Positions 5,137 through 22,885 of a DNA stretch of 64,000 bases are shown piece after piece. The translations under genes and the position numbers were made by a program. Numbering within the stretch: position 1 is the first letter of the stretch; the number at the start of each line of letters is the position of its first letter. This DNA comes from Stenomitos rutilans HA7619-LM2 (lineage in GTDB: Bacteria > Cyanobacteriota > Cyanobacteriia > Leptolyngbyales > Leptolyngbyaceae): the NCBI GenBank assembly GCA_019358945.1, contig JAHHIE010000004.1:124001-188000 (forward strand), written 5' to 3'. The notes under the pieces were generated by a model that saw only the letters and a program-made list of their open reading frames with translations, made no database searches and was not told the origin of the DNA.

Positions 5137-7569
5137 ATGGCAAACGCCTTTGTTAACATCCCAAACTGGGAGTCGTTTGAAAATCAGGGAGCGAACGTTG
5201 CGGTTGCAGATTTAGGCAACACTGGGCAGAAAGACCTGATCGTATTGAAAGTGGACAATCCACAGGGCAAGAATCAAGGCTTTTATCGCGTTGGTAAGGG
5301 ATTGAGTGCAGCCGACCAGGTGGCTGGCTGGGGAAATTGGATCGCGATTCCTGATTGGTTTTCGTTTGAAAATCAAGGGGCAGGGTTGGCGATCGCGGAT
5401 GTCAACAAAAACGGCAAATTGGATCTGGTTGTGTTCATGGTGGATAATCCACCGGGCAAAAATCAGGGGTTTTATAAAATCGGTCGGGATTTGGACGGCA
5501 ATGGCAATGTGACGGGTGGCTGGAGTAATTGGATTGCTGTGCCTGATTGGTTTTCGTTTGAAAATCAGGGGGTGGGCATTGCCATTGCTGACCTCGATAA
5601 AAATGGCACCCCCGATCTGGTGGTGTTCACGATCGACAATGCACCCGAACTGAATCGCGGCCTTTTTCGGATTGGTAAAGGGTTAGACGCTAACGGCATT
5701 GTGACGGGTGGTTGGACTGATTGGATCGATGTGCCGGATTGGTTCTCCTGGGAAAATCAAGGCGCAGGGGTTGCGATCGCCGACCTGGAAAACACAGGCA
5801 ACCTTGATCTCGTCATCTTCCACATTGACAATGCGATCGGGCAAAACCAGGCGTTTTATCGCGTTGGGAAACGGCTGCAAGCCAATGGGGCGATCGCGGG
5901 TGATTGGGGCAACTGGCAGGGCATTCCCAACTGGTTTGGCTGGGAAAACCAGGGTGGCGGTATTGCGGTGACTGCGATCGGTGGCAAACACAAATTGGTG
6001 ACCTTAATGGTGGACAATCCACCAGGTTTAAACGCAGGTCTCTACCAGGTTTTGGATCTCGACCCCGATCCCACAGCACAAGGGAAATGGGAATTGTTGC
6101 CTTTCCATTCAGGCGTTCTAGCGGTGCATGCAGCCTTACTGCCGACGGGAAAAGTGCTCTTCTTTGCGGGGTCTGGTAGTAGCGCCGTTCGGTTTGCTAG
6201 CCAGGACTTTGGCAATGAAGCAAAAGGCATTTTCACCAGTGTGGTGTGGGATTGGGAAGCGGGCGCGAGCTTTGCCCATCCCAAAACAATTCGGGCTGCC
6301 AACGGTAAACCCTTCGACTTTTTCTGTGGTGGCGATGCGTTTTTACCCGATGGGCTGCTGCTTTCAGCGGGTGGTACCTCCCACTACAACCCCTTTATGG
6401 GTCGCAATGATGCCACGGTGTTCGATCCGCAGACGCAGCAGTGGGCGTTTGTCAAACCAATGGCTCACGGACGCTGGTACCCAACCCTGACCAATTTGGG
6501 CGATGGACGCGTGCTTGCCACAACGGGCTTAAACGAAGCGGGGAACGATCACAACCAGGCGTTAGAAATCTACTCTGGTACGACCAATACCTGGCAGGTG
6601 AAGCATTTTGCACCCGGATTCCCTGGACTACCGCTCTATGCGCACCTGTTCTTGATGCAGGATGGCCGGATTTTCTTCTCCGGTGGTCGCATGGATGACC
6701 CCATGGAGGTAGAGCCGTGCATTTTTGACCTGACCAAAAATCCGGTACCGACTCAGCCTGTTCCTGACTTGCTTGACCCTGTGCTGCGGAACCAGTCAGC
6801 CAGCGTGCTGTTGCCTCCAGCGCAGGATCAGAAGGTGATGATCATTGGCGGTGGCCCCGTTGGGAAGGAAGACAAGACCGATGCTACTGATAAAGTGAGC
6901 ATTGTCGATTTGAAGGCAGCAAAGCCAGTTTACAAAGCGGCGGCTCCGATGCAGCTGCCCCGACTGCACTTGAACGCGGTGCTGTTGCCCGATCGCACCG
7001 TTTTTGTTACAGGCGGCTCGCTTAAACAAGAAGACACACCGCTGGCACGACTACAACCAGAAATCTACGACCCAGCTACCAACACCTGGAGTTTGATGGC
7101 AGAAGCGACCGTTCCTCGCCTGTACCACTCCACTGCACTGCTGTTGCCAGATGGGCGCGTGGTGGCAGCGGGTGGCAACCCCGAAGGCGGCAAATCGGTT
7201 ACCTGGGAACCCCCCGATGAAGAAGAGGAAATGCGGTTAGAAATCTTCAACCCGCCATACCTGTTTAAAGGGCCACGACCGACGATCGCCCCTCCACCAA
7301 ACGAGTGGAAATACGGGCAAACCCTGACGCTGCAATCGCCTCAAGCTGGCAACATTCGCTGGGTCAGCCTGATCAAAAACGGTGTCACCACCCATTCGTT
7401 TGATAGCGGTCAACGCCTGGTAGATGTCGAGATCCTGTCTCAAGCGGGTGGAACCCTGCAAGTGCGCGTGACCAATAACCCGAACCTGGCTCCTCCGGGC
7501 TGGTACATGCTGTTCCTCACGGATCGGAACGGTGTGCCGTCGATCGCACGCTGGGTACATCTCACTTAA
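5137..7569 (+). CDS. Copper-radical oxidase (galactose/glyoxal oxidase-like) with N-terminal FG-GAP/VCBS-type repeats
   Basis: An 810-residue two-part protein. Residues 8-305 hold five repeats of about 64 residues, each beginning IPDWFSFENQ or a variant, with Asp/Asn-rich turns typical of FG-GAP/VCBS beta-propeller blades. Residues 320-700 form a kelch-type propeller (LLPDGRV blades), and the C-terminus matches the galactose-oxidase early-set (DUF1929) domain. All copper-site residues of the family appear present: Cys397 (FFCGGD), Tyr448 (GRWYPT), Tyr663-His664 (RLYHST) and His753 (TTHSFD). Cys397-Tyr448 would form the thioether radical cofactor. Family reaction: oxidation of primary alcohols or aldehydes to aldehydes or acids with release of H2O2. 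No classical signal peptide is visible at the MANAFVN start, so the secretion route is unclear. Confidence 0.85.
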   Translation: MANAFVNIPNWESFENQGANVAVADLGNTGQKDLIVLKVDNPQGKNQGFYRVGKGLSAADQVAGWGNWIAIPDWFSFENQGAGLAIADVNKNGKLDLVVFMVDNPPGKNQGFYKIGRDLDGNGNVTGGWSNWIAVPDWFSFENQGVGIAIADLDKNGTPDLVVFTIDNAPELNRGLFRIGKGLDANGIVTGGWTDWIDVPDWFSWENQGAGVAIADLENTGNLDLVIFHIDNAIGQNQAFYRVGKRLQANGAIAGDWGNWQGIPNWFGWENQGGGIAVTAIGGKHKLVTLMVDNPPGLNAGLYQVLDLDPDPTAQGKWELLPFHSGVLAVHAALLPTGKVLFFAGSGSSAVRFASQDFGNEAKGIFTSVVWDWEAGASFAHPKTIRAANGKPFDFFCGGDAFLPDGLLLSAGGTSHYNPFMGRNDATVFDPQTQQWAFVKPMAHGRWYPTLTNLGDGRVLATTGLNEAGNDHNQALEIYSGTTNTWQVKHFAPGFPGLPLYAHLFLMQDGRIFFSGGRMDDPMEVEPCIFDLTKNPVPTQPVPDLLDPVLRNQSASVLLPPAQDQKVMIIGGGPVGKEDKTDATDKVSIVDLKAAKPVYKAAAPMQLPRLHLNAVLLPDRTVFVTGGSLKQEDTPLARLQPEIYDPATNTWSLMAEATVPRLYHSTALLLPDGRVVAAGGNPEGGKSVTWEPPDEEEEMRLEIFNPPYLFKGPRPTIAPPPNEWKYGQTLTLQSPQAGNIRWVSLIKNGVTTHSFDSGQRLVDVEILSQAGGTLQVRVTNNPNLAPPGWYMLFLTDRNGVPSIARWVHLT

Positions 7570-7951: not shown

Positions 7952-8806
7952 ATGATGAGCGGAAGCAAAATACCCGAAATACTGGAAACCTATGAAGCAG
8001 ATTTGCTGGCAGAGTGGCACCAGGAGTTAGCCGCGAGCAACGCTCGGAAAGGGTTGATTAAGGAGGCCGAGTTACAGGAAGAGTGCCGTGAATTTCTCAG
8101 GCTGCTTCGCATCGCCGTGCAGCAGGGCGACTTGACCAATGTGCAGGCAACCGCTTGGAAAGAAGTACGGGAAATGCTGATGAGCGTCTCGCGGACGCGA
8201 TCGCAAAAAGGCTTCACCCCGTCTGAAACGGCTGTCTTCGTCTTTTCGTTCAAGCAACCGTTATTTAAGCGCCTGCGGCAGCAGTTGCAAGACCCGATTG
8301 AACTGGGTGACGTGATTTGGGAAGCAACCGTCTTGCTCGATCAGCTTGGCTTACTGACGGTGGAAGCGCATCAGAAGACACGGGAGGAAATTATTCTGCG
8401 GCAGCAGGAAGAGATGATGGAATTATCGACGCCCGTTGTGAAGCTTTGGGACGGTATTCTCGCACTGCCCATCATTGGCACGCTGGATAGCGCCCGTACT
8501 CAGGTGGTCATGGAGTCGTTGTTGCAGAAGATTGTTGAAACGGGGTCAGCGATCGCCATTATTGACATTACTGGAGTCCCAACGGTCGATACTCTAACGG
8601 CTCAACATCTGCTCAAAACGGTGACAGCCGCCCGCCTGATGGGAGCCGATTGCATTATCAGCGGCATTCGTCCTCAAATTGCCCAGACGATCGTGTATCT
8701 CGGTATCGATTTGACGGGGGTGATTACCAAAGCGACCCTGGCTGATGCCTTGCTGGTAGCACTCAAGCAAGTGGGAGCGGCCATCAATCGCTTACCCGCC
8801 AAGTAA
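7952..8806 (+). CDS. rsbR: RsbR-like stressosome scaffold/sensor (STAS C-terminus)
   Basis: A 284-residue protein: an alpha-helical sensory N-terminus (about 1-140, RsbR N-terminal type), a linker helix, and a C-terminal STAS domain (about 160-280). The STAS part contains IDITGVPTVDTLTAQHL and GIRPQIAQT, matching the two phospho-acceptor regions of RsbR proteins; Thr214 and Thr246 are the likely acceptors. Family role: with RsbS it builds the stressosome, and stress makes RsbT phosphorylate it. First gene of a tight plus-strand run, 15 bp before rsbS. An adjacent ATG-ATG pair begins the frame, so the start is uncertain by one or a few codons. Confidence 0.9.
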   Translation: MMSGSKIPEILETYEADLLAEWHQELAASNARKGLIKEAELQEECREFLRLLRIAVQQGDLTNVQATAWKEVREMLMSVSRTRSQKGFTPSETAVFVFSFKQPLFKRLRQQLQDPIELGDVIWEATVLLDQLGLLTVEAHQKTREEIILRQQEEMMELSTPVVKLWDGILALPIIGTLDSARTQVVMESLLQKIVETGSAIAIIDITGVPTVDTLTAQHLLKTVTAARLMGADCIISGIRPQIAQTIVYLGIDLTGVITKATLADALLVALKQVGAAINRLPAK

Positions 8807-8821
8807 GGACAGGAGAAACGA

Positions 8822-9232
8822 ATGGAGCGCATTCCTATACTGCAAATTGGCGAATTCTTGCTGGTCACGATTCAGGTCGATATGCATGACCAGCTTGCCA
8901 TGTCTTTGCAGGATGATCTGACCAATCGCATTACGCAAACCTATGCTCACGGGGTGTTAATTGATATTTCGGCGCTAGAAATTGTGGATTCGTTTATCGG
9001 TAGAATTTTAGGTAATATCGCTAAAATGTCGCGGGTGCTGGGCGCTGAGACGGTTGTAGTCGGTATGCAGCCTGCGGTAGCGATCACGCTGGTAGAACTG
9101 GGGCTGACGCTGACAGACATTCGCACCGCGCTCAACATGGAGAAGGGCATGGCGCTGTTGCGATCGTCATTGGGTGACAGCACCCATCAGGTCGCCGCTC
9201 AAGGAGATGCAGATGACGATGGAGAAGCTTGA
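8822..9232 (+). CDS. rsbS: RsbS-like single-domain STAS antagonist
   Basis: A 136-residue lone STAS domain. The strand-helix junction LIDISALEIVDSFIGRIL places Ser57 at the position phosphorylated by RsbT in B. subtilis RsbS. A good Shine-Dalgarno (ggacaggag) lies 8 nt before the ATG. Its 3' end overlaps the rsbT start by 20 bp. Role by family: co-scaffold of the stressosome that holds the RsbT switch kinase until Ser57 is phosphorylated. Confidence 0.9.
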   Translation: MERIPILQIGEFLLVTIQVDMHDQLAMSLQDDLTNRITQTYAHGVLIDISALEIVDSFIGRILGNIAKMSRVLGAETVVVGMQPAVAITLVELGLTLTDIRTALNMEKGMALLRSSLGDSTHQVAAQGDADDDGEA

Positions 9233-9617
9233 AAACATGAGCATCCAGTCGTCGGGAGACGTGGTTTTAGTAAGGCAAGCCGTGCGGCAGGTTGCGGTTG
9301 CGCTCGGTTTCAGCCTGGTAGACCAAACCAAAATTGTGACAGCCGCTAGCGAGTTAGCCCGCAACACGTTGGATTATGGTGGTGGCGGTTTAATGAAGCT
9401 AGAAACCCTTCAAGAAGGGAGCCGCCGGGGCATTAGACTCACGTTTGAAGATGAGGGGCCGGGGATTCCTGACCTTGAACTGGCGCTTAAGGATGGGTAT
9501 ACCACAGGGGGCGGCCTGGGGATGGGGCTGAGCGGTGCCAAACGTCTCGCCAACGAATTTGAGCTTGAGTCCGCTGTGGGAAAAGGCACACGGGTCACGA
9601 TCGTCCGCTGGAAGTGA
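9213..9617 (+). CDS. rsbT: RsbT-like serine/threonine switch kinase
   Basis: Start placed at the ATG at 9213, because AAGGAG (9201-9206) lies 6 nt upstream; the frame stays open further upstream to a GTG at 9174. The resulting 134 residues match the family length of about 133. GHKL-type ATPase motifs are clear: N box SELARNTLDYGGGG, G1 DEGPGIPD, and G2 GGGLGMGLSGAKRL. Role: phosphorylates RsbS/RsbR, and when released it acts on a downstream partner. It overlaps rsbS by 20 bp, so translation is probably coupled. No rsbU, rsbV, rsbW or sigB is nearby, so the output is not the Bacillus sigma-B route. Confidence 0.9.
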   Translation: MTMEKLENMSIQSSGDVVLVRQAVRQVAVALGFSLVDQTKIVTAASELARNTLDYGGGGLMKLETLQEGSRRGIRLTFEDEGPGIPDLELALKDGYTTGGGLGMGLSGAKRLANEFELESAVGKGTRVTIVRWK

Positions 9618-9727
9618 CGGGAAGTAAAAGAGATGCGGCATTAGAGGGATGAGCAAGCAGGCAAACTCGGTCTATGATCGATAGCGTACATAGTTAAGTG
9701 TTTTGAGGGATAAGCGATGACTAATAC

Positions 9728-10735
9728 ATGAAAGAATCGATCGCCATTGCCATTACTGAATCAAGTCAAATAGGCGAAGCCCGACGCGCAGCGCTGGTGT
9801 TGGTCGCTCACCTTGGCTTCAATGCATTAGAGCGGGGCAAAGTGAGCCTTGTAGTCACTGAGCTTGCGAACAATCTCGTACAGCATGGGGGCGGCGGTAT
9901 GGTCTTACTCCAAGCGATTGAGCAACAGTCCATCCTTGGCATCGAGATCTTAGCGCTCGATCAAGGCCGGGGAATGATCGATGTCGATGAGTGCCTGAAA
10001 GACGGCTTCTCTACTAATGGCACCGCAGGCAATGGGCTGGGTGCGGTTCATCGCCTCTCTAGCTTCTTTGAGATCTATGCCCCTCCCACGCAGGGAGCAG
10101 CTATCCTGGCCCAACTTTGGGCAGATGCAACCCACCATCCGTCCGAGAAGGCTCTAGAGGTGAGTGGCGTGTGTCTACCAAAGCGGGGCGAGACGGTTTC
10201 GGGCGATGCCTGGACGTGCCAGGGAGAGCATCACCGTTGTTTGCTGTTAGTAGTCGATGGCCTGGGGCATGGGCCTGCTGCTGCCAGCGCTGCGGCTGCC
10301 GCCTTGAGAGTATTTCAGGAGCAGCATCACCGATCGCCCCATCTGATGATTGAAGCCGCCCACGCGGCTCTACGCAGTACCAGGGGTGCCGCACTGGCGA
10401 TCGCTGAAATCAATTTTGAGCACCAGTCGGTTCGCTTTGCTGGCATTGGCAATATTGCAGCGAGTTTGTCTTCTCCCACGGAGCACCGCAGCTTAGTCTC
10501 TCACAATGGTACAGTCGGGCATGAGGTGCGTAAAATTCAAGAGTTTACCTACCCCTGGTACGAGCAGGGACTTTTGATTATGCATTCTGATGGTTTGGGC
10601 ACTCAGTGGAAGCTCGATCGCTACCCAGGCTTGAGCCAAAAACATCCCAGCCTGATCGCTGGGGTGCTGTACCGAGACTTTCACCGAGAGCGCGACGATG
10701 TGACCGTAGTAGTCGCCAAAGGAAAGGGCCTATGA
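9728..10735 (+). CDS. RsbT-like ATPase fused to SpoIIE/RsbX-like PP2C phosphatase
   Basis: 335 residues in two domains. Residues 1-130 are a GHKL switch-kinase-like domain (VTELANNLVQHGGGG, DQGRGMIDVD, GNGLGAVHRL). Residues 140-335 are a SpoIIE-type PP2C phosphatase with metal-ligand motifs SGDAW, VVDGLGHGPAAA, SDGLGTQ and RDDVTVVV. By comparison with RsbX it would dephosphorylate the stressosome STAS proteins and reset the module. Its fused ATPase domain could dock it there. It starts 110 bp after rsbT, and its stop overlaps the next start as ATGA. Confidence 0.85.
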   Translation: MKESIAIAITESSQIGEARRAALVLVAHLGFNALERGKVSLVVTELANNLVQHGGGGMVLLQAIEQQSILGIEILALDQGRGMIDVDECLKDGFSTNGTAGNGLGAVHRLSSFFEIYAPPTQGAAILAQLWADATHHPSEKALEVSGVCLPKRGETVSGDAWTCQGEHHRCLLLVVDGLGHGPAAASAAAAALRVFQEQHHRSPHLMIEAAHAALRSTRGAALAIAEINFEHQSVRFAGIGNIAASLSSPTEHRSLVSHNGTVGHEVRKIQEFTYPWYEQGLLIMHSDGLGTQWKLDRYPGLSQKHPSLIAGVLYRDFHRERDDVTVVVAKGKGL

Positions 10736-12876
10736 CAACCCTCTTCACCCTTACCGTGCACTATGAACAGGATGTGGTGCAGTCTCGGCAGCGAACGCGC
10801 GAACTTGCCGAGCAGTTGAGCTTTGAAACTCAAGACCAGGTGCGACTGGCAACCGCTGTGTCAGAGCTTGCCCGCAATGCGTTTCAGTATGCGGGTGGCG
10901 GCACCGTTGCCTATAGCGTAGAAGGCGATCCGCAAATGTTTCTGGTGCGGGTGCAAGATCAAAGGGTGGGCATTCCCCATCGTGATGACGTTTTGGAGGG
11001 GCGCTATGCCTCTTCCACAGGAATAGGTGTGGGCATTGTCGGCACTCGCAGACTCGTAGATTTCTTTGAGATTGAATCGCCGCCAGACGAGAGAACGACC
11101 GTGATCGTGGGTAAGTGGTTGCCAAAGCAGGCACCCATTTTAACCGCTTCACACTTGCAGCAGCTTCGAGAGGCGGTGATGGCGCGATCGCCCCAAAACC
11201 CCTACGACGAAATTCAGCGGCAAAACCAGGAACTGCTGCGGGCAATGGCAGATTTGCGGAAGCGAGAAGAAGAACTGACCCAGCTCAATCAAGAATTAGA
11301 AGACACTAATCGCGGCGTGGTGGCTCTGTATGCCGAACTGGATGAGAAGGCCAACGCCCTGCAACAGGCCAATGAGCTAAAAACCCGCTTTCTCTCCAAT
11401 ATGAGCCATGAGTTTCGCACACCGCTTAACTCTGTCCTGTCGCTCTCTCGGATGCTGCTGGCTCGGATGGATGGCGACCTGACCGCAGAACAAGAAAAGC
11501 AAGTCACCTTTATTCAACATGCGGCAGATGGCCTGTCGGAACTGGTGAACGATCTGCTGGATCTGGCTAAGGTCGAGGCGGGCAAAACCGAGGTGCGTCC
11601 CAGTGCCTTTGCAGTCAGCGATTTATTTGGCACCTTGAGAGGTATGCTGCGCCCCTTATTGGTCGAAGGCGCATCGGTAGCGCTCATCTTTGAGGAACCC
11701 GATGGCTTGCCAACGCTCTACAGCGATGAGGGCAAAGTCGCTCAAATTATCCGGAATTTTATCTCCAATGCGCTCAAATTTACGGAGCAGGGAGAGGTGC
11801 GAGTGAGCGCCCGAAAGACCGACCATCTGATCACGCTCTCGGTGTCTGATACCGGAATTGGGATTACGCCTGACGATCAAGAGCGCATTTTTGAAGATTT
11901 TGTGCAAATTGAGTCTCATCTGCAAAAGCAGGTGAAAGGGACGGGATTGGGCTTGCCGTTGTCTCGGAAGCTGGCAGAGCTGCTGGGTGGCAGTCTTTCG
12001 GTGCGTAGCCAGCCAGGGCAGGGGTCTATGTTTGCCGTGACGCTGCCGATCGTCTACCCCCATGTAACGGAGCGCCCTCCTCTGCAACCACCCACCCCGC
12101 TCAAAGCAACCCATCTACCCATTCTCGCCGTTGAAGACCATACCGAAACGCTCTTTATTTACGAGAAGCATCTACAAGAGTCACGCTATCAGCTCATTGC
12201 AGCGCGAACGCTAGCAGAGGCGAGGCAAGCCCTACAGCAACTGCGCCCGGCGGCGATCGTGCTCGACATTCTGCTTGATAGGCAAAACGGCTGGACATTT
12301 TTGCGCGAACTCAAAAGCGATGACGCCACTCGCGCGATTCCTGTCCTGGTTATTACAGTCGTTGATAACGAGAAGCAGGCGCTGGCACTGGGAGCAGATG
12401 GCTTTTTAATTAAGCCTGTAGAGAGATTGCCCTTGCTCAACAAGATCAATACGCTAGTTAAGCAGGGCAACGCCCAAACGCTCTTACTCATTGATGATGA
12501 TCCAGCCTACCGATATGTGGTGAAACAGGTATTGGCAAGCACTCCCTTGCAGATTTTAGAAGCCGCAAACGGACAGGAAGGGTTGGCGCTGGCAGAACGC
12601 GAACAGCCAGAAGCCATTTTGCTTGACCTCGAAATGCCAGATGTGAATGGACTGGCTGTCCTCGATCGCCTTAAGGAAACCGCCACGACTCGATCGATTC
12701 CCGTGATCATTCACTCCTCTATACAATTGGATGCAGAGCAGTTGGATGCAGAAGCGCAACGTCGCTTAGCGGCACAGAGTATTGCCATTCTGTCAAAAGA
12801 AACGACTGCTCAGGCAGGCGCAACAACACCCCTTCGAGCGGCGCTGGTTAGGGCAGGACTCGTTTTAGATGCGTAA
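10732..12876 (+). CDS. RsbT-like/histidine kinase/double receiver hybrid protein
   Basis: Start chosen at the ATG at 10732, which overlaps the upstream stop as ATGA, giving 714 residues; the frame is open to 10606 but that would overlap the phosphatase by 130 bp. Domains: switch-kinase-like GHKL ATPase (1-125; N box VSELARNAFQYAGGG, degenerate G1 DQRVGIPH), coiled coil (about 160-220), HisKA with His226 in NMSHEFRTPLN, HATPase_c (about 330-445), receiver 1 with Asp512, and receiver 2 with Asp632 (LLDLEMP). No membrane segment, so cytoplasmic. An RsbT-like module joined to a phosphorelay kinase suggests the stressosome signal is handed to two-component chemistry. Confidence 0.85.
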   Translation: MTTLFTLTVHYEQDVVQSRQRTRELAEQLSFETQDQVRLATAVSELARNAFQYAGGGTVAYSVEGDPQMFLVRVQDQRVGIPHRDDVLEGRYASSTGIGVGIVGTRRLVDFFEIESPPDERTTVIVGKWLPKQAPILTASHLQQLREAVMARSPQNPYDEIQRQNQELLRAMADLRKREEELTQLNQELEDTNRGVVALYAELDEKANALQQANELKTRFLSNMSHEFRTPLNSVLSLSRMLLARMDGDLTAEQEKQVTFIQHAADGLSELVNDLLDLAKVEAGKTEVRPSAFAVSDLFGTLRGMLRPLLVEGASVALIFEEPDGLPTLYSDEGKVAQIIRNFISNALKFTEQGEVRVSARKTDHLITLSVSDTGIGITPDDQERIFEDFVQIESHLQKQVKGTGLGLPLSRKLAELLGGSLSVRSQPGQGSMFAVTLPIVYPHVTERPPLQPPTPLKATHLPILAVEDHTETLFIYEKHLQESRYQLIAARTLAEARQALQQLRPAAIVLDILLDRQNGWTFLRELKSDDATRAIPVLVITVVDNEKQALALGADGFLIKPVERLPLLNKINTLVKQGNAQTLLLIDDDPAYRYVVKQVLASTPLQILEAANGQEGLALAEREQPEAILLDLEMPDVNGLAVLDRLKETATTRSIPVIIHSSIQLDAEQLDAEAQRRLAAQSIAILSKETTAQAGATTPLRAALVRAGLVLDA

Positions 12877-12887
12877 GGAGAACGGTT

Positions 12888-15362
12888 ATGCCTGAGCCAC
12901 AGTTAACCATCCTGCACGTTGATGACAACGAGGCCAATCGGTATGTGGTTACGCGGATTTTGCAGCAGGCAGGCTTTGTCGTTGTGGAGGCCGCAACCGG
13001 GGCCGCAGGGTTGGCCGCGATCGCCGAGCATCAGCCAGCCTTAGTCATTCTGGATGTGAAATTGCCCGACTTAGGCGGCTTTGAAGTGTGCCGCCAGATC
13101 AAAGCTAACCCTGAAACAGCTTTTATCCCAGTGCTGCACCTTTCGGCTACGTTTACCCAAAGCCATGATAAAGCCCAAGGCTTAGATAGCGGTGCAGATG
13201 CCTATCTCGCGCAGCCCGTTGACCCCATTGAACTGGTCGCTACGGTGCGATCGCTGCTCCGCATTCGTCAGGCAGAGGAGTCGGCTCTGTCATCTGCACG
13301 AGGCTGGCAAACTACGTTTGACTCGATCAATGACAGTGTATGCCTGGTTGACCAGGCAGGTAAAATTCTACGCTGCAACCAGGCCATGAGCCAATTGTTC
13401 TGCAAGCCTTGCGATGCCCTCTTAGGTCAGGTTCACTATGAGTCAATGGCAGCAACGCTAGGTATGGGAAGTGGTACCTGCTTTCGCCTCGCCAAAGAAA
13501 CACAGCAGCGCCAAGTTGTAGAATTTCAGGCGCAAGGACGATGGTTTGCCAAAACAATGGATCCCGTTTTGGATGAGCATGGTACCTTTACTGGAGCTGT
13601 TTTTATCCTGACAGATATTACCGATCGCAAACAGGCCGAAGCGGCGTTGCGAGAAAGTGAAGAACTGAAGCAACGCATCCTCGATAGCAGTAAAGACTGC
13701 ATTAAAGTTTTAACGTTTAACAGCGAAATTACCTATATCAATGCAGGCGGACTATCGCTTTTGGAGATTGAAGACCCAACACTCATTTTGGGCGCTCCCT
13801 GGCTTGACTTTTGGCAAGGCGAGGATCATGAAAAGGCGAAGACGGCGATCGCGGCAGCTAGAGCAGGCCATACCGGACAGTTTCAAGGCTACCTCCCTAC
13901 TCACAAGGGCATACCCAAATGGTGGGACAGCATTGTCACGCCCGTGCAGAATGCCTCTGGACAGGTAACTCAACTCCTGGCAATCTCGCGCGACATCACA
14001 AAGCAAAAATACGCAGACGCTGAACGTGACCAATTGCTGGCGCGTGAGCAAGCTGCCCGTGAGCAAGCTGAAACCGCCAATCGGATCAAAGATGAGTTTT
14101 TGGCGGTATTGTCCCATGAGCTGCGATCGCCCCTCAATCCCATTTTGGGTTGGGCCAGAATTTTGCAAACAAGCCAGCAGGACGAAGCCAGAACGCAGTA
14201 CGCCCTGGAGACGATCGAGCGCAATGCCAAACTACAGGCACAACTCATCGAAGACTTGCTGGATGTCTCCCGCATTTTGCAAGGCAAGTTGAGCTTAAAC
14301 AAAGGTTCAATCAGTTTAGCGGTTACCATCAGAGCGGCGCTTGAAACGGTGCGCCTTGCGGCTGAGGCAAAAAACATTCAAATCCACACCATGCTGGAAC
14401 CAGAGGTTGGGCAAGTATTGGGCGACTCCAGCCGTCTGCAACAGGTTATGTGGAATTTGCTTACCAACGCCGTAAAATTTACCTCTCACGGAGGTGACAT
14501 TGAGGTACGGCTAGAGCAGGTCGAGGTCGAGAATGCACAAGAGGCTATCAGCATGGGGCAACGGGTGGGGGAACACGGAACGTTACATGTCACCCACCCT
14601 GATGCATTCGGAGCCGCTACGCAAACGTCCCCCCACTCTCCACTCCTCACCCTCCACTCCCTTTCCTACGCTCAGATCACTGTCAAGGATACGGGAAAAG
14701 GCATCGCTCTCAACTTCTTGCCTTACGTCTTTGACTACTTCCGCCAAGCCGATAGTACAACGACGCGCAGCTTTGGCGGCTTAGGGCTGGGTCTCGCGAT
14801 CGTGCGTCATCTGGTTGAGCTACACGGTGGTACTGTTTGTGTCACCAGTCCTGGAGACGGCCAGGGCGCAACGTTCGTCGTCCAGCTTCCCATTATGACG
14901 GTGGCAAAACTACATCCAGAGCATACCGTGTCTCATCATGACTCCCATCTGGATCTGCATGATTTGAACGTGCTGTTTGTCGATGACGATCGCGATTCGC
15001 GCGAGTTAATTACCTTTTTGCTCAGACAATATGGAGCCAGCGTGACGGAAGTTGCCTCAGCTAGTGAAGCCCTGAGTAGCTTGAGAGACACCACCTTTGA
15101 TTTGCTGATTAGCGATATTGGAATGCCTACAATGGACGGTTATGCTTTAATGCGTCAGATTAGAGCGCAAACGGCTGAGCAGGGCAGTAGCATTCCCGCG
15201 ATCGCGCTCACGGCCTATGCAGGCGAAATTGACCAGAAGCAAGCGCTTGCCGCTGGCTTTCAGCAGCACCTGACGAAACCCGTGGAGCCAGAACTCCTGA
15301 TGCAAACGATCAGGACGTTTATGGAAACGCGTGGCAAGGTTCGTACTGTGGAATACTCCTAG
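12888..15362 (+). CDS. Receiver-PAS-PAS-histidine kinase-receiver hybrid
   Basis: 824 residues, starting 11 bp after the previous gene behind AAGGAG. Order: N-terminal receiver (Asp56 in ILDVKLPD), PAS (about 140-250), second PAS (about 255-375), HisKA with His410 (LSHELRSPLNP), HATPase_c (about 515-680) and C-terminal receiver (Asp743 in ISDIGMP). The N-terminal receiver could accept phosphate from the preceding hybrid kinase, making a relay. Odd feature: a Pro/Ser/Thr/His-rich insertion of about 40 residues (DNA about 14,530-14,670) interrupts the ATPase domain between the N-box region and KDTGKGI. It reads like intergenic repeat DNA. Confidence 0.88.
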   Translation: MPEPQLTILHVDDNEANRYVVTRILQQAGFVVVEAATGAAGLAAIAEHQPALVILDVKLPDLGGFEVCRQIKANPETAFIPVLHLSATFTQSHDKAQGLDSGADAYLAQPVDPIELVATVRSLLRIRQAEESALSSARGWQTTFDSINDSVCLVDQAGKILRCNQAMSQLFCKPCDALLGQVHYESMAATLGMGSGTCFRLAKETQQRQVVEFQAQGRWFAKTMDPVLDEHGTFTGAVFILTDITDRKQAEAALRESEELKQRILDSSKDCIKVLTFNSEITYINAGGLSLLEIEDPTLILGAPWLDFWQGEDHEKAKTAIAAARAGHTGQFQGYLPTHKGIPKWWDSIVTPVQNASGQVTQLLAISRDITKQKYADAERDQLLAREQAAREQAETANRIKDEFLAVLSHELRSPLNPILGWARILQTSQQDEARTQYALETIERNAKLQAQLIEDLLDVSRILQGKLSLNKGSISLAVTIRAALETVRLAAEAKNIQIHTMLEPEVGQVLGDSSRLQQVMWNLLTNAVKFTSHGGDIEVRLEQVEVENAQEAISMGQRVGEHGTLHVTHPDAFGAATQTSPHSPLLTLHSLSYAQITVKDTGKGIALNFLPYVFDYFRQADSTTTRSFGGLGLGLAIVRHLVELHGGTVCVTSPGDGQGATFVVQLPIMTVAKLHPEHTVSHHDSHLDLHDLNVLFVDDDRDSRELITFLLRQYGASVTEVASASEALSSLRDTTFDLLISDIGMPTMDGYALMRQIRAQTAEQGSSIPAIALTAYAGEIDQKQALAAGFQQHLTKPVEPELLMQTIRTFMETRGKVRTVEYS

Positions 15363-15407: not shown

Positions 15408-15716
15408 CTACCGATCTTGCTGTGTCTTTAGATCTGCCATGAGAAGGTTGATGCGCTCTGCCACATCCGCCCGCCCATCGGGGTCAGCTTCACGAAGAAA
15501 GACATCCAAAAGAAACCAGCGACACAGATCGGGATCGGTCTGCACCAGACGAAGAATCACCCCGTTAATGACTTCTGTGGTCAAGGCACTGGGCAGTCGC
15601 TGTAATTCATCTCGGATCACCAGAGCATTGTCCAAGTCCTGAGTTTGATAGGCACTCACGATCGCCTTAACGACGGTATCAATCAAATCATCAAGCTTTA
15701 GCTCTACATCATCCAT
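15408..15716 (-). CDS. Conserved-looking small helical protein, unknown function
   Basis: About 102 residues if the ATG at 15716 is used; the frame also extends to a TTG at 15734. Predicted all-helical and acidic, with DxLDNALVIRDELQRLP and a C-terminal helix rich in Leu and Asp. It is not recognised as a known family. It sits antisense between two hybrid kinases, facing the end of the receiver-PAS kinase gene. It could be a helical adaptor for these kinases, but nothing in the sequence proves this. Confidence 0.5.
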   Translation of the reverse strand: MDDVELKLDDLIDTVVKAIVSAYQTQDLDNALVIRDELQRLPSALTTEVINGVILRLVQTDPDLCRWFLLDVFLREADPDGRADVAERINLLMADLKTQQDR

Positions 15717-15768
15717 GTTGCTGGTCGGGGGCAAAAGACGTTCTCTTGAGAATGGTACAAGATTTAAG

Positions 15769-16008: not shown

Positions 16009-16189
16009 GTTAACCAATCGCCATCTATCCTCTACCTTAAGACAGACCCCCTTCGAGATACACCTCAACCATAATGAGTACTTATCATGCTTCCTGCGGT
16101 TCTGCCCCAGGTTGATTGTTGCTCTGCCATTGGCACACATGATTGCCAGCATTCGTAACAGCCATCTCTCCTGTGAAAAGGATTTTGCC

Positions 16190-19100
16190 ATGCCCACTGC
16201 ACAAGTACCTGCCAATACAGATAATCTCGACCCAAAGCAGCTCTTAAATATTCTGACAGAGATTAAAAAAGGTAATTTTTCAGTCCGCATGTCGATCGAC
16301 CAGACAGGGATTGCGGGCAAAATTGCCGATACGCTCAATGACATCATTGATATGAATGAGCGACTCACCAGCGAGCTAGAGCATATTGGTACGGTGGTGG
16401 GTAAAGAAGGCAAAATCAATGAACGCGCCTCTCTGGGCAGTGCGAAAGGCTCCTGGAAAGCCAGCGTTGATTCTGTGAACACGCTCATTAGCGACCTGGT
16501 GCAGCCGACCGCAGAAACGGCGCGGGTGATTCGGGCGGTAGCGAATGGGGATTTGTCACAGACGATCGCCACCGAAATCGATGGCAGACCCTTGCAAGGG
16601 GAGTTCCTCCAAACGGCACGCATTGTCAATACGATGGTGGATCAGCTCAACTCCTTCGCCTCTGAGGTCACGCGGGTCGCACGCGAAGTGGGTACGGAAG
16701 GCAAACTGGGTGTACAGGCAGAAGTAAAAGGCGTGGCGGGCACCTGGAAAGACCTCACCGATAGCGTGAACTCGATGGCAGGCAACCTGACCGCACAAGT
16801 CCGGAACATCGCCGAAGTGACGACCGCTGTAGCGAACGGCGATTTGTCCAAAAAAATCACGGTGGATGTCAAAGGTGAAATCCTGGAGCTAAAAGACACG
16901 ATCAATGTGATGGTGGATCAGCTTAACTCTTTCGCCTCGGAAGTCACCAGGGTCGCGCGCGAGGTAGGCACGGAAGGCAAACTGGGCGTGCAGGCAGAAG
17001 TAAAAGGCGTGGCGGGCACCTGGAAAGACCTCACCGACTCCGTGAACTTGATGGCAGGCAACCTGACGGCACAGGTGCGGAACATTGCCGAAGTGACCAC
17101 GGCTGTAGCGAATGGCGATCTGTCCAAAAAAATCACGGTCGATGTCAAAGGCGAAATTCTAGAGCTGAAAAATACCGTCAACATCATGGTGGATCAGCTC
17201 AACTCTTTCGCCTCTGAGGTGACGCGGGTGGCGCGCGAAGTGGGCGCAGACGGTAAGTTGGGTGGTCAGGCACAAGTCCGTGGGGTGGCTGGTACGTGGA
17301 AAGACCTGACGGACTCCGTAAACTTCATGGCAGGCTCCCTAACGGCACAGGTACGGAACATCGCCGAAGTGACCACCGCCGTAGCCAATGGCGATCTGTC
17401 CAAAAAAATTACGGTGGATGTGAAAGGTGAGATTCTAGAGCTAAAAAATACCATCAACACAATGGTGGATCAGCTCAATTCCTTTGCCTCGGAGGTCACA
17501 CGGGTCGCGCGAGAAGTGGGTACGGAAGGCAAACTGGGCGTGCAGGCGGAAGTCCGAGGCGTGGCAGGTACCTGGAAGGATTTGACGGATAACGTGAACT
17601 CGATGGCAGGCAACCTGACCGGACAGGTGCGAAATATTGCAGAGGTGGCAACGGCGATCGCCAACGGTGACCTCTCCAAGAAAATTACGGTGGATGTCAA
17701 AGGTGAAATTCTAGAGCTAAAAAATACCATCAACATCATGGTGGATCAGCTCAATTCCTTCGCCTCGGAAGTCACTAGAGTGGCGCGAGAAGTGGGTTCC
17801 GAAGGCAAGCTGGGTGGTCAGGCCGACGTGAAAGGCGTAGCAGGCACCTGGAAAGACCTGACGGACTCCGTGAACTTCATGGCAGGTAGCTTAACGGCGC
17901 AAGTGCGGAACATCGCCGAAGTGACCACCGCTGTAGCCAACGGCGACCTCTCCAAAAAAATCACCGTGGATGTGAAAGGTGAAATCCTGGAGCTAAAAGA
18001 CACCATTAATGTCATGGTGGATCAGCTCAACTCCTTTGCCTCGGAAGTCACCAGAGTGGCGCGCGAAGTGGGTTCCGAAGGAAAGCTGGGTGTACAGGCC
18101 GACGTGAAAGGCGTAGCAGGCACCTGGAAAGACCTGACGGACTCCGTGAACTCAATGGCAGGCAACCTGACGGCACAGGTACGAAATATTGCGGAAGTGA
18201 CGACCGCTGTAGCCAATGGCGACCTCTCCAAGAAAATCACCGTGCAGGTAAAGGGCGAGATCCTGGAGCTAAAAGACACCATCAACGTCATGGTGGATCA
18301 ACTCAGTTCCTTTGCCTCTGAGGTAACGCGGGTCGCGCGCGAAGTGGGTACGGAGGGCAAGCTGGGTGTGCAGGCAGAAGTACGCGGCGTAGCAGGCACC
18401 TGGAAAGACTTGACCGACTCCGTGAACTCGATGGCAGGCAACTTGACCGCCCAGGTACGGAACATTGCCGAAGTGACGACCGCTGTAGCCAATGGCGACC
18501 TCTCCAAAAAAATCACGGTGGATGTGAAAGGCGAAATTTTAGAGCTGAAAAACACCATCAACGTCATGGTGGATCAACTCAGTTCCTTTGCCTCTGAGGT
18601 AACCAGGGTGGCGCGCGAAGTGGGTTCCGAAGGGCGACTGGGCGTGCAGGCCGATGTCCGTGGGGTTGCAGGCACCTGGAAAGACCTGACGGATTCGGTG
18701 AATTTCATGGCAGGCAGTTTGACCGCCCAGGTACGGAATATTGCGGCGGTCACGACGGCAGTTGCGAACGGTGACCTGTCGAAGAAAATTACGGTAGATG
18801 TGAAGGGCGAAATTCTGGAGCTGAAGAACACCGTCAACACGATGGTGGATCAGCTTAATTCCTTCGCTTCTGAGGTGACACGGGTGGCGCGCGAAGTGGG
18901 AACGGAGGGCAAGCTGGGCGTACAGGCCGAAGTACGCGGGGTTGCAGGCACCTGGAAAGATCTGACGGATTCCGTGAACTTTATGGCAGGCTCACTCACC
19001 GCACAGGTACGAAACATTGCGGAAGTGACGACCGCTGTAGCCAATGGCGACCTCTCCAAAAAAATCACGGTGGATGTGAAGGGCGAAATTCTAGAGCTGA

Positions 19101-22100
19101 AAAACACCATCAATACAATGGTGGATCAGCTTAGTTCCTTTGCCTCTGAGGTAACCAGGATGGCACGCGAGGTGGGTACGGAAGGGAAGCTAGGCGTGCA
19201 GGCGTATGTGCGAGGCGTAGCGGGTACCTGGAAAGACCTTACCGACAACGTAAACTCAATGGCGGGGAACCTCACAGCGCAGGTGCGAAACATTGCCGAA
19301 GTGACGAAAGCGGTAGCCAACGGCGACCTCTCTAAAAAAATTACGGTGGATGTGAAGGGCGAAATTCTCGACCTGAAAGACACCATTAACGTGATGGTGG
19401 ATCAGCTTAACTCCTTTGCCTCTGAGGTAACGCGGGTGGCGCGAGAAGTGGGAACCGAAGGGATTTTGGGTGGTCAGGCAGAGGTACGCGGGGTCGCAGG
19501 CACCTGGAAAGACCTGACCGACTCGGTGAACTTCATGGCAGGCAACCTGACAGCGCAGGTGCGAGGCATCGCCAAAGTCGTGACCGCTGTAGCAAATGGC
19601 GACCTGAAACGGAAGCTGATGCTGGAAGCAAAGGGTGAAATTGAAACCCTGGCGGATACGATTAACGAGATGATTGACACGCTGGCGACCTTTGCCGATC
19701 AGGTGACAACGGTGGCCCGTGAGGTGGGCATTGAAGGGAAGCTGGGTGGTCAGGCAAAAGTGCCGGGTGCATCAGGAACGTGGCGTGACCTGACCGACAA
19801 CGTGAACGAGCTGGCGGCAAATCTCACCACTCAGGTGCGCGAAATTGCAGAGGTGGCAACCGCGGTGACGAAGGGTGACCTGACCCGATCGATCTCCGTG
19901 GCAGCCGAAGGGGAAGTCGCCATCCTGAAGGACAACATCAACCAGATGATTGCCAACCTGCGGGAAACAACTCAGAAGAACACCGAGCAAGACTGGCTCA
20001 AAACCAACCTGGCGAAGTTCACCCGAATGCTTCAGGGGCAACGAGATTTGGAAGCCGTTTCCAAGCTGATTCTGTCGGAGCTGGCACCGCTGGTTTCGGC
20101 ACAGCACGGGGTCTTCTACCTGATGGAAAGCAGCGAACTCCATCCCCCATACCTCAAGCTGCTCAGCACCTATGCCTACCGAGAGCGTAAGCATCTGGCG
20201 AACCAGTTTCATTTAGGTGAAGGGCTGGTCGGACAGTGCGCGTTGGAAAAAGAGCGCATTCTCATCACCGAAGTGCCCAGCGATTACATCAAAATCAGCT
20301 CTGGTTTGGGTGAAGCCACTCCATTGAATGCCGTCGTTCTACCTGTGCTGTTTGAAGGTCAGGTCACGGCGGTCATTGAACTGGCCTCCTTCCGACGCTT
20401 TAGCGAAATTCACCTGACGTTCTTTGACCAACTGACCGAAAGTATCGCGATCGTCCTCAACACGATCGCCGCCAGTATGCGAACCGAAGAACTCCTGAAG
20501 CAATCGCAATCCTTGGCAGAAGAACTGCAAACCCAGCAGAAGGAACTCACCGAAACCAACCAACGATTGGAGCAACAGGCACAATCCCTAACCGCATCGG
20601 AAGAACTGCTTAAGAACCAGCAAGATCAGCTCCAGCAAACCAACGAAGAGTTGGAAGAAAAAGCCGAACTGTTGGCAATGCAAAACCAGGAAGTAGAGCG
20701 CAAAAACCGAGAAATTGAACAAGCCCGACAGTCTTTAGAAGAAAAAGCCACGCAGTTGGCAATGACCTCCAAGTACAAGTCTGAGTTTCTGGCAAATATG
20801 TCCCACGAGCTACGCACGCCGCTCAACAGCCTGTTGATTCTGGCGCAACTCCTGGGCGACAATAGTGATGGCAACTTGACCACTAAACAAGTTGAGTATG
20901 CCCGCACTATTCATGCCTCTGGTGGCGACCTGCTCACCCTCATCAACGACATTCTCGACCTCGCAAAAATTGAGTCGGGCACCATGTCGGTAGAGATTGA
21001 CCAAACCCTCTTTACCGACCTCAGCAAACATATGGAGCGTACCTTCCGTCAGGTGGCGCAAACCAGACGGCTGGATTTCCACATTCACCTGGATGAATCG
21101 CTGCCCCGCTTCATGTACACCGATTCAAAGCGTCTTCAGCAGGTGTTGAAGAACTTGCTGGCAAATGCATTTAAATTTACTGAGCAAGGGGATGTTAATT
21201 TACAAGTCAGCGTGGCTACGCACGGTTGGAGCCAAGATCAGAAACTGCTAAATCAGGCAGAAACGGTGATTGCGTTTGCGGTGCGCGATACAGGTGTGGG
21301 CATTCCATTAGCGAAACAACGGGTCATTTTTGAAGCCTTCCAACAGGCTGACGGCACGACTTCCCGTAAATATGGCGGAACAGGCTTAGGGCTATCCATT
21401 AGCCGTGAGATTGCGCAACTGTTGGGTGGTGAGATTCAGCTAGAAAGTGAAGCAGGCAATGGCAGCACGTTTACGCTATATCTACCGCAGTCTTATGTTG
21501 CAGTTGACGATCGCACTGAACCGTTTGCCCCTTCCCAGGCAGAGCTGGCTGACTTTAGGATACAACCTGGTAACCTGGTAAAACCGTCGGCCTGGCAGCC
21601 TACGCCATCTTTTGAAGACGGACAGCTATCGGTGGCACTAGAGGAACCGCTTCTCACGTCCCTCCTTGCTGATCCCACGATCGACGACGATCGCGACACT
21701 ATTCAACCCAGTGATTGCGTCCTCCTCATCATTGAAGACGACCTTACGTTTGCTCAGATCCTTCTAGACATGGCGCGCCAGCAAGGTTTCAAGGGATTGG
21801 TGGCCGTTCGGAGTGATGTGGGATTGGCAATGGCGCAAGAGTTGAAACCAACGGCCATCATGTTGGATGTGCGATTGCCCGTCATGACAGGCTGGGCGGT
21901 CTTAGATCGGCTCAAGCACAACCCTGCCACGCGACACATCCCTGTCCATATGATGTCGGTTGAAGAGGGGCAGAAGCGTAGTCTCCAACTGGGTGCGATC
22001 GCCTTCATGCAAAAACCTGCTAGCAGCGAAACGCTCTCACAGGCTCTCAGCGACATCAAAGGTTTTGTTGAACGTCCAGTTAAGCATCTCCTGGTGGTTG

Positions 22101-22885
22101 AAGATGATGAAACTCAACGCCACAGTATTGTTGAGCTTATTGGCAACAGTGACGTGAGAAGTACAGCCGTCGGTACGGGTGCAGATGCCTTAGAAGCACT
22201 TCAGTCAGGTCATTTTGACTGTTTAGTTCTGGATCTCGGACTGCCTGACGTAACGGGCTTTGAGCTGATTGAACAAATCAAACAAAGACCAAATCTTCAG
22301 CGCCTCCCCATCATCATCTACACGGGCAAAGAACTCACCGCTCAAGAAGAGACCGAACTGCGACGTCTTTCCGACACCATTATCGTGAAAGATGTGCGAT
22401 CGCCCGAACGTTTGCTGGAAGAAACGGCGTTATTCCTGCATCGGGTGCAGGAAAATCTGCCTGCGTCACAGCGTTTGATGCTGGAGCAACTCCAGAAAAC
22501 CGATCCCGTTCTCGCGCAGAAGAAAGTGCTGATTGTGGATGACGACGTGCGCAACATCTTTGCACTCACCAGCATGCTGGAACGCTATCAAATGCAAGTG
22601 GCGTATGCCGAAAATGGACGTGATGGCATCACCATGCTGCAAAACGACCCTGACATCAATCTAGTCTTGATGGATGTCATGATGCCAGAGATGGACGGCT
22701 ATGAAACGATGCATGCCATTCGCCAGCTAGAGGCGTTCCGCACCTTGCCCATGATTGCCCTCACGGCTAAAGCCATGAAAGGCGATCGCGAAAAGTGCAT
22801 CGAAGCTGGTGCATCCGATTACATCACAAAACCCGTTGATATGGAACAGTTATTGTCACTCCTGCGGGTTTGGCTCTACGAATAG
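16190..22885 (+). CDS. Soluble poly-HAMP hybrid histidine kinase (14 HAMP, GAF, kinase, three receivers)
   Basis: Start at the ATG at 16190, preceded by aaaagga at about 7 nt; the frame is open further upstream. 2231 residues without a membrane segment. Residues 15-150 hold two divergent HAMP units. Residues 149-1252 are twelve tandem units of exactly 92 residues, most containing [20 protein letters not shown] and [13 protein letters not shown] domain (about 1270-1420), a Gln/Glu-rich coiled coil (to about 1520), HisKA with His1539 ([11 protein letters not shown]), HATPase_c and three receivers ([21 protein letters not shown]) follow. Poly-HAMP kinases of this type are known in fungi (group III, osmosensing) and bacteria. 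The HAMP chain probably acts as a long two-state rod between input and kinase. Confidence 0.93.
16634..19945 (+). repeat. Twelve tandem 276-bp units encoding HAMP domains
   Basis: Each unit begins at an ATGGTGGATCAG-type codon run; positions 16634 + n x 276 were checked at unit 12 (19670) and at the end (19946). Units 1-10 encode almost the same 92 residues, differing at a few sites (S/F/L before MAG, GVQ/GGQ, KDT/KNT). Units 11 and 12 are diverged. The antisense strand carries open frames with the same 276-bp period; these are a by-product of the repeat. Confidence 0.95.

Follow-up and report, generated by a model that had tools for sequence, protein, structure and literature searches.

Stressosome modules of Gram-negative bacteria have been found linked to two-component genes, as in Vibrio vulnificus, where rsbRSTX is accompanied by VvD1/VvD2 (PMC9237108; PMC10014275), and RsbT has been reported to turn the otherwise flexible linkers of RsbU into a coiled coil (PMC12143880). 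We describe here a six-gene operon of Stenomitos rutilans HA7619-LM2 (genome 7.28 Mb) in which an RsbT-like domain forms the N-terminus of a hybrid histidine kinase, termed TK. The operon lies in a stretch of 64,000 nt (contig JAHHIE010000004.1, positions 124,001–188,000; hereafter the window, whose numbering is used throughout). Recurrence of this gene set in many phyla points to a likely direct link between stressosome and phosphorelay. We favour, with a confidence just short of even, the reading that the N-terminal domain (NTD) of TK serves the stressosome as a docking handle for holding and releasing the histidine kinase, the six genes together forming a stressosome-to-phosphorelay module.

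All six genes are on the forward strand between 7952 and 15,362, and the gene layout, domain make-up and junctions given for this region in the initial annotation agree in every detail with open reading frame (ORF) coordinates and Pfam matches. rsbR (7952–8806) encodes an RsbRD_N sensor domain (PF14361, 95.7 bits) followed by STAS (PF01740), rsbS (8822–9232) a single STAS domain (PF01740) whose phospho-acceptor Ser57 corresponds to Listeria Ser56, and rsbT (9213–9617) a stand-alone GHKL switch kinase matching HATPase_c and HATPase_c_2. The first two genes are separated by 15 bp, and the ATG of rsbT at 9213 overlaps rsbS by 20 bp. A gap of 110 bp leads to TX (9728–10,735), an RsbT-like domain (PF13581, HATPase_c_2) fused to a SpoIIE/PP2C phosphatase (PF07228), which is joined by an ATGA overlap to TK (10,732–12,876); 11 bp further on lies gene six (12,888–15,362), a receiver-first hybrid kinase with the Pfam order REC-PAS-PAS-HisKA-HATPase_c-REC (REC, receiver). 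With RsbR (sensor plus STAS), RsbS (STAS) and RsbT in one operon, the locus has the genes by which an RsbRST stressosome is recognised.

TK has the order RsbT-like NTD, long helix, HisKA, HATPase_c, REC, REC. The NTD (10,732–11,127; residues 1–132) is assigned from hidden Markov model scores and an AlphaFold fold like that of SpoIIAB, and the predicted long helix (11,200–11,460; residues 157–243, from AlphaFold secondary structure) runs from the NTD into the histidine-bearing helix and contains a TNRGV motif (11,305–11,319). HisKA (11,380–11,583; PF00512) carries the phospho-acceptor His226, invariant in 50 aligned rows, and the receiver domains (12,121–12,831; PF00072) form two stretches, the limits of the second being approximate. 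Pfam places HATPase_c_2 at residues 15–126, HisKA at 217–284 and HATPase_c at 332–440, followed by the two Response_reg stretches, and TK thus has the phospho-histidine, ATPase and receiver domains that define a hybrid histidine kinase; RsbU_N is not among its Pfam matches (E ≤ 0.001). The initial annotation was also right that there is no sigma-B pathway in the window. Across the genome the SigBFG family has 11 matches, all below the family cut-off, the one on the window's contig lying ~98 kb upstream of the window. HATPase_c_2 is found on this contig in RsbT, TX and TK only, among the 30 genome matches listed.

Kinship and occurrence of the fused domain

The RsbT-like identity first proposed for the TK N-terminus is upheld by profile scores. 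A profile built from nine NTDs (the window and eight relatives) scores Listeria RsbT at 111 bits and RsbW, from the same sigma-B operon, at 20 bits, while an RsbT profile gives the same RsbT 124 bits and the same RsbW 0.4 bits. On the first pair of scores we reject RsbW-type anti-sigma identity, which the initial annotation had named as the result that would overturn its proposal; the NTD has neither an RsbW-like profile nor a linked sigma-B-type factor. That TK is nonetheless a plain RsbW-type anti-sigma kinase fused to a histidine kinase and regulating a sigma factor is extremely improbable, given these scores and the absence of any SigBFG match over the cut-off in the genome. In its favour, Pfam assigns only the broad HATPase_c_2 family, and SpoIIAB is nearest among solved structures, whether compared by sequence or by fold, RsbW matching more weakly. 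TK residues 1–143 by themselves matched no PDB sequence, and a search with the NTD profile led to SpoIIAB. In an AlphaFold2 model of TK residues 1–296 (50 sequences; mean predicted local distance difference test score 85.5, predicted template modelling score 0.58), the N-terminal domain is followed by helix 157–243 entering the histidine-bearing region, and Foldseek against the PDB placed SpoIIAB at ranks 1–6, with GacS and RsbW after it. The PDB matches listed include none named as RsbT, and the structure ranking therefore cannot favour RsbT.

In a tree built from the window and 28 loci (89 rows, all NTDs having an intact ATP site, with three outgroup rows and T_L199 left out), TK NTDs form one group (100/99) and TX NTDs another (100/100); the RsbT rows are not a single group (2 changes). 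Adding the long-branched outgroup broke up the TK group, inside which the outgroup rooted.

Eleven of the 42 genomes of the window's order carry the fusion, the window's own included, and all 10 relatives keep the gene order RsbR-S-T-TX-TK, so that the arrangement is not due to chance. A count across 386 cyanobacterial genomes, much as proposed in the initial annotation, found TK in 13 (E ≤ 1e-40; the window's own counted) and strong RsbT (≥214 bits) in exactly the same 13; three further genomes have a weaker RsbT (91–143 bits) and no TK. A second survey covered 250 genomes of the order of Noviherbaspirillum genome G432 (picked because it has TK), which we take to be the Burkholderiales. Here the TK core was found in seven genomes, the same seven having strong RsbT (≥163.9 bits), and two more have weaker RsbT (112–136 bits) without TK. 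Scoring in both surveys was limited to the 6 to 16 leading first-look candidates of each genome.

From a scan of named genomes we took the top 80 among 561 confirmed candidates, a choice that tilts the loci towards close relatives. Of 101 loci examined (10 + 80 + 11), 92 contain the fusion, 89 of them together with RsbR, RsbS, RsbT and TX; the other three are L096 and L105, at contig ends, and L140, which is unlinked. With the window included and L097 discarded as a duplicate (its contig is that of L075), the distinct fusions number 92, and 89 of them again stand in complete RsbR-S-T-TX-TK operons. The fusion is thus wide, yet it stands beside rsbRST-TX in 89/92 cases, and not widely without rsbRS, the other pattern that the initial annotation had set against its proposal. 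Five loci seemingly out of order (84/89 in order by start) proved to be an artefact of stop-to-stop frames, which start early; by end coordinates all are in order.

By record title, fusions are present in 11 phyla and complete operons in nine. Pseudomonadota, Actinomycetota, Acidobacteriota, Cyanobacteriota and Myxococcota are joined by Deinococcota (Deinococcus radiodurans plasmid MP1) and by single records from metagenome-assembled genomes (MAGs) of Spirochaetota, Rokuibacteriota (contig end), Planctomycetota, Nitrospirota and Verrucomicrobiota (unlinked). A Bacillota locus (L158), in which the fusion call rests on a doubtful 14-bit NTD match, is among the 92 fusions but was kept out of the phylum totals. 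This occurrence excludes a fusion peculiar to the window genome or to cyanobacteria, and the covalent stressosome-kinase link first noted here, although present at the locus, is no local oddity and belongs to a recurring gene set.

ATP site and putative partner face of the NTD

RsbT shows no variation at the tested N-box, G1 and G2 positions (96/96 rows), and neither does TX across its 96 rows, apart from Gly-to-Ala in two. Among the 92 TK NTDs, N49, D76, G80 and G101 are all kept in 68, one is lost in L140 and at least two are lost in 23, comprising 15/15 copies from Actinomycetota, 7/21 from Betaproteobacteria and L158. Most of these 23 come from related species and therefore represent a few events rather than 23. 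The same eroded copies keep Arg19 (22/23), Arg23 (23/23), Glu45 (23/23) and Ser44 (22–23 of 23); in the other 69 the counts are 68 for Arg19, 62 for Arg23 and 69 for Glu45. Mean conservation in intact versus eroded NTDs is 0.70 versus 0.68 for alpha-1, 0.81 versus 0.67 for the N-box helix and 0.64 versus 0.21 for the G1–G2 stretch. Arg19 and Arg23 each align with the identically numbered Arg of Listeria RsbT, and in Bacillus subtilis RsbT R19, R23 and N24 have been implicated in RsbU binding (PMC12143880). In SpoIIAB, Arg20 is near the site of the STAS partner, Asn50 is a Mg2+ ligand and Glu46 the catalytic base (PMC10345196).

The window's TK keeps N49, D76, G80 and G101, but at residue 78 (codon 10,963–10,965) Arg replaces the nearly invariant Gly of the G1 box; this position is Gly in all 10 order relatives and in 74 of 93 rows, and Arg in six. 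Of the switch-kinase N-terminus described in the initial annotation, the likeness to RsbT therefore stands, while with the ATP site lost in 23/92 copies and this substitution in the window the domain is probably not a kinase everywhere.

Because the ATP-site residues are eroded in 23/92 NTDs while Arg19, Arg23 and Glu45 are retained, we favour docking rather than catalysis as the function of the domain. The module as a whole is further supported by the linkage to rsbRST-TX, the RsbT kinship of the NTD, the conserved phosphosites of RsbS and RsbR, the presence of the NTD on other kinase cores beside rsbS and rsbT, the receiver-first gene six with its varied outputs, and the lack of TNRG in two of the unlinked fusions. 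Docking, release, the direction of the signal and the path of the phosphate we infer as follows. RsbR and RsbS, whose roles like that of RsbT are assigned by homology only, would form the STAS scaffold, with RsbT as switch kinase. The TK NTD would bind this scaffold through its alpha-1/N-box face, by which RsbT contacts its own partners, and TK so bound would be held in an unproductive arrangement. On stress, RsbT would phosphorylate RsbS and RsbR and TK would be released, whereupon its long TNRG helices could pair and the HisKA domains autophosphorylate. From HisKA, phosphate would then move on to the receivers within TK, and perhaps also to the product of gene six, an output protein that begins with a receiver. 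RsbS and RsbR would be reset by TX, a PP2C that has an RsbT-like handle as well.

Retention of all four ATP-site residues in 68 of the 92 NTDs, and of Glu45 in every one, would also suit an NTD that is itself active on RsbR/RsbS as a further Ser/Thr kinase, by which the phosphorelay would feed back into the stressosome instead of reading it. We regard this as quite unlikely, since the site is eroded in all 15 actinomycete and seven of 21 betaproteobacterial copies and the window's own G1-box Gly is Arg. Still less credible is neutral domain shuffling, with the NTD co-inherited in the operon and having no coupling role. The NTD is indeed missing from some operons and eroded in others, but erosion is mainly in the ATP-binding stretch, and Arg19, Arg23, Ser44 and Glu45 are kept in 22–23 of the 23 eroded copies.

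Extended to the many phyla with the fusion (nine with complete operons), docking would imply that the client of the stressosome is a histidine kinase, kept in place by a captive RsbT copy that has decayed to a pseudokinase handle in at least two lineages, and that the stressosome is a scaffold storing and releasing histidine kinases and not only RsbT; this wider proposal is offered still more tentatively than docking in the window itself.

Linker, core and outputs

The linker of TK is marked by TNRG[VI], present in 89/92 fusion loci (the window is outside this count), in 7/9 TK cores that lack the NTD, and in none of the 85 further histidine-kinase ORFs that these loci contain (82 after removal of two TK fragments, L101 and L118, and the duplicate L097). 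Two of the three fusions without it have near forms (TNKG in L154 and TNQG in L155), and the third, the unlinked L140, has none; the motif is also absent from an unlinked copy in Massilia (L277). Gly195 of TNRG is invariant in 50 aligned rows. By analogy, TNRG may be a hinge comparable to the RsbU linker.

TX keeps D160, D177, D288, D323 and D324 in 11/11 rows, as befits a SpoIIE-type PP2C; these Asp residues presumably have a metal role, and TX would act like RsbX. In a core alignment of 90 rows (88 loci, the window and Listeria), the phospho-acceptor position of RsbS is Ser and Thr209 and Thr241 of RsbR (Listeria numbering) are Thr throughout, Thr209 corresponding to B. subtilis Thr205 (PMC9237128).

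A same-strand receiver gene follows TK on the 3′ side in 73/91 loci, with the receiver first in 71 of these. Of the 18 loci in which profiles detect none, L071, L100, L124 and L129 are at or near a contig or locus edge. Ten representatives of gene six combine REC with a histidine kinase (seven), a SpoIIE phosphatase (two, from actinomycetes) or an HD-type phosphodiesterase (one). The phospho-Asp of the first receiver (12,888–13,290 in the window) is kept in 72/74 rows, and this domain is a possible partner of TK, phosphotransfer to it being a guess.

Several observations weigh against the docking scheme or parts of it. With 68/92 NTDs retaining the ATP-site residues, catalysis may matter in the intact copies. 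Eroded NTDs score 14–112 bits against the NTD profile, and HATPase_c_2 was undetected by Pfam at the N-terminus of the two eroded copies tested (L139 and L144). The loci were ranked by similarity and are clustered by kinship. Unlinked fusions exist: L140/L278 (Rariglobus) has rsbRST on another contig, L277 (6904–8247), the second copy of its Massilia genome, has no match to rsbRST in the 16 kb around it, and a second copy in genome G508 (C1:502180-503040) is taken to be unlinked as well. For the output, 14/91 loci show no profile-detected receiver gene after TK though the sequence goes on, and the usual Lys position of the gene-six receiver is Gln in 33, Glu in 24 and Lys in only two of 74 rows; lacking this Lys in 72/74, the receiver is an unusual one, and simple phosphotransfer to it is therefore uncertain. 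In RsbR, 88 of the 90 rows have Ser at the position of Listeria Thr175, with Thr in one and a gap in one. By offset this position appears to be Thr171 of B. subtilis, which reportedly must be phosphorylated before RsbS can be (PMC7522486), and Ser could still accept phosphate; in the window, too, it is Ser, within a TLDS motif at the start of STAS. Finally, the TK kinase core occurs without the NTD in 9/101 loci, six of them inside complete RsbRST-TX operons (L157, L165–L168, L170), and the NTD is absent in 4/7 TK-core genomes of the Noviherbaspirillum-order survey. NTD docking is therefore not essential, and the covalent link, since close kinases occupy the same operon position without it, is not indispensable.

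The other NTD-less cores are L164, at a contig end, and L162 and L163 (planctomycete MAGs), which are paralogues with no rsbRST in the locus, in genomes that both have a linked fusion on another contig; these two have a different N-terminus of ~200 residues with no Pfam family match (E ≤ 0.01) and are followed by a receiver protein. Conversely, L245 and L246 (Sphingomonas and Paraburkholderia plasmids) have a TK-type NTD beside rsbS and rsbT on a poorly matching core (28.6 and 30.4 bits), and the NTD looks movable.

Persistence of TNRG in seven of the nine NTD-less cores, six of the nine being in operons that retain RsbT, suits an action of RsbT in trans, in which released RsbT would bind and stiffen the TNRG linker of TK as it does that of RsbU, with the fused NTD only a dimerisation or accessory element. 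RsbT has been modelled as binding both the N-terminal domain and the linker of RsbU, and makes the linker a coiled coil (PMC12143880), and histidine kinases with RsbU_N have been reported in rsbT operons (PMC12143880; PMC9237108). We consider this alternative unlikely on balance, though by no means negligible, as it leaves unexplained why a domain with the RsbT face is retained on the kinase even in copies without an ATP site.

Just downstream of the operon in the window, a 108-aa ORF on the reverse strand (15,408–15,734) matches neither Pfam nor NCBIfam at the cut-offs applied. Beyond it lies a large hybrid kinase (16,112–22,885) in which ~12–13 HAMP units, encoded by a tandem repeat with a 276-bp unit (10.8 copies, 82% matches), precede GAF, HisKA, HATPase and three receivers. 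Upstream (5137–7569) lies a galactose-oxidase-like protein with FG-GAP and Kelch repeats.

Relation to known systems

A description of an RsbT-like/HisKA fusion was not found in the literature consulted, although Pane-Farre (2005), Makarova (2001) and a 2017 stressosome chapter may contain one. Plasmid MP1 of D. radiodurans (L243; DR_RS15570–15595) has the same six-gene order, R-S-T-TX-TK-REC/HK (HK, histidine kinase), but its TK has no receiver match by profile, unlike the window's with two; its genes are annotated merely as STAS, anti-sigma regulatory factor and ATP-binding proteins. From gene order, these loci would be DR_B0024–29, with DR_RS15590 as DR_B0028. DR_B0028 was among the proteins raised after vacuum exposure, and co-regulation of it and DR_B0029 with an operon for antisigma-factor regulation has been suggested (PMC6501615); DR_B0026 has been named sigma B regulator RsbT (PMC7143949). 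No literature on the mechanism of this operon was found. An RsbT-like domain on the kinase itself offers a concrete, widely conserved route from stressosome to phosphorelay with named residues (Arg19, Arg23, Glu45 and the TNRG linker), and natural variants with the ATP site intact or eroded, or the NTD absent, make the link testable, including in the tractable D. radiodurans.

Among characterised systems, the locus resembles V. vulnificus rsbRSTX with VvD1/VvD2 in having rsbR-S-T, a PP2C and then two-component genes, with no sigma-B. It differs in that RsbT-like domains are present on TX and TK, whereas excerpts of the Vibrio reports give the PP2C as single-domain and mention no RsbT-like kinase domain. 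The RsbU_N histidine kinases of rsbT operons (PMC12143880; PMC9237108) are likewise thought to be controlled by the stressosome through the N-terminus, which in those kinases is a receptor for RsbT in trans and in TK is itself RsbT-like. In the Moorella thermoacetica stressosome with MtG (PMC12143880), output has also moved away from sigma-B; MtG, unlike TK, is a GGDEF diguanylate cyclase with RsbU_N. Set beside these, the gene set is a variant form of stressosome output and not a separate kind of system: real, well conserved and mechanistically suggestive.

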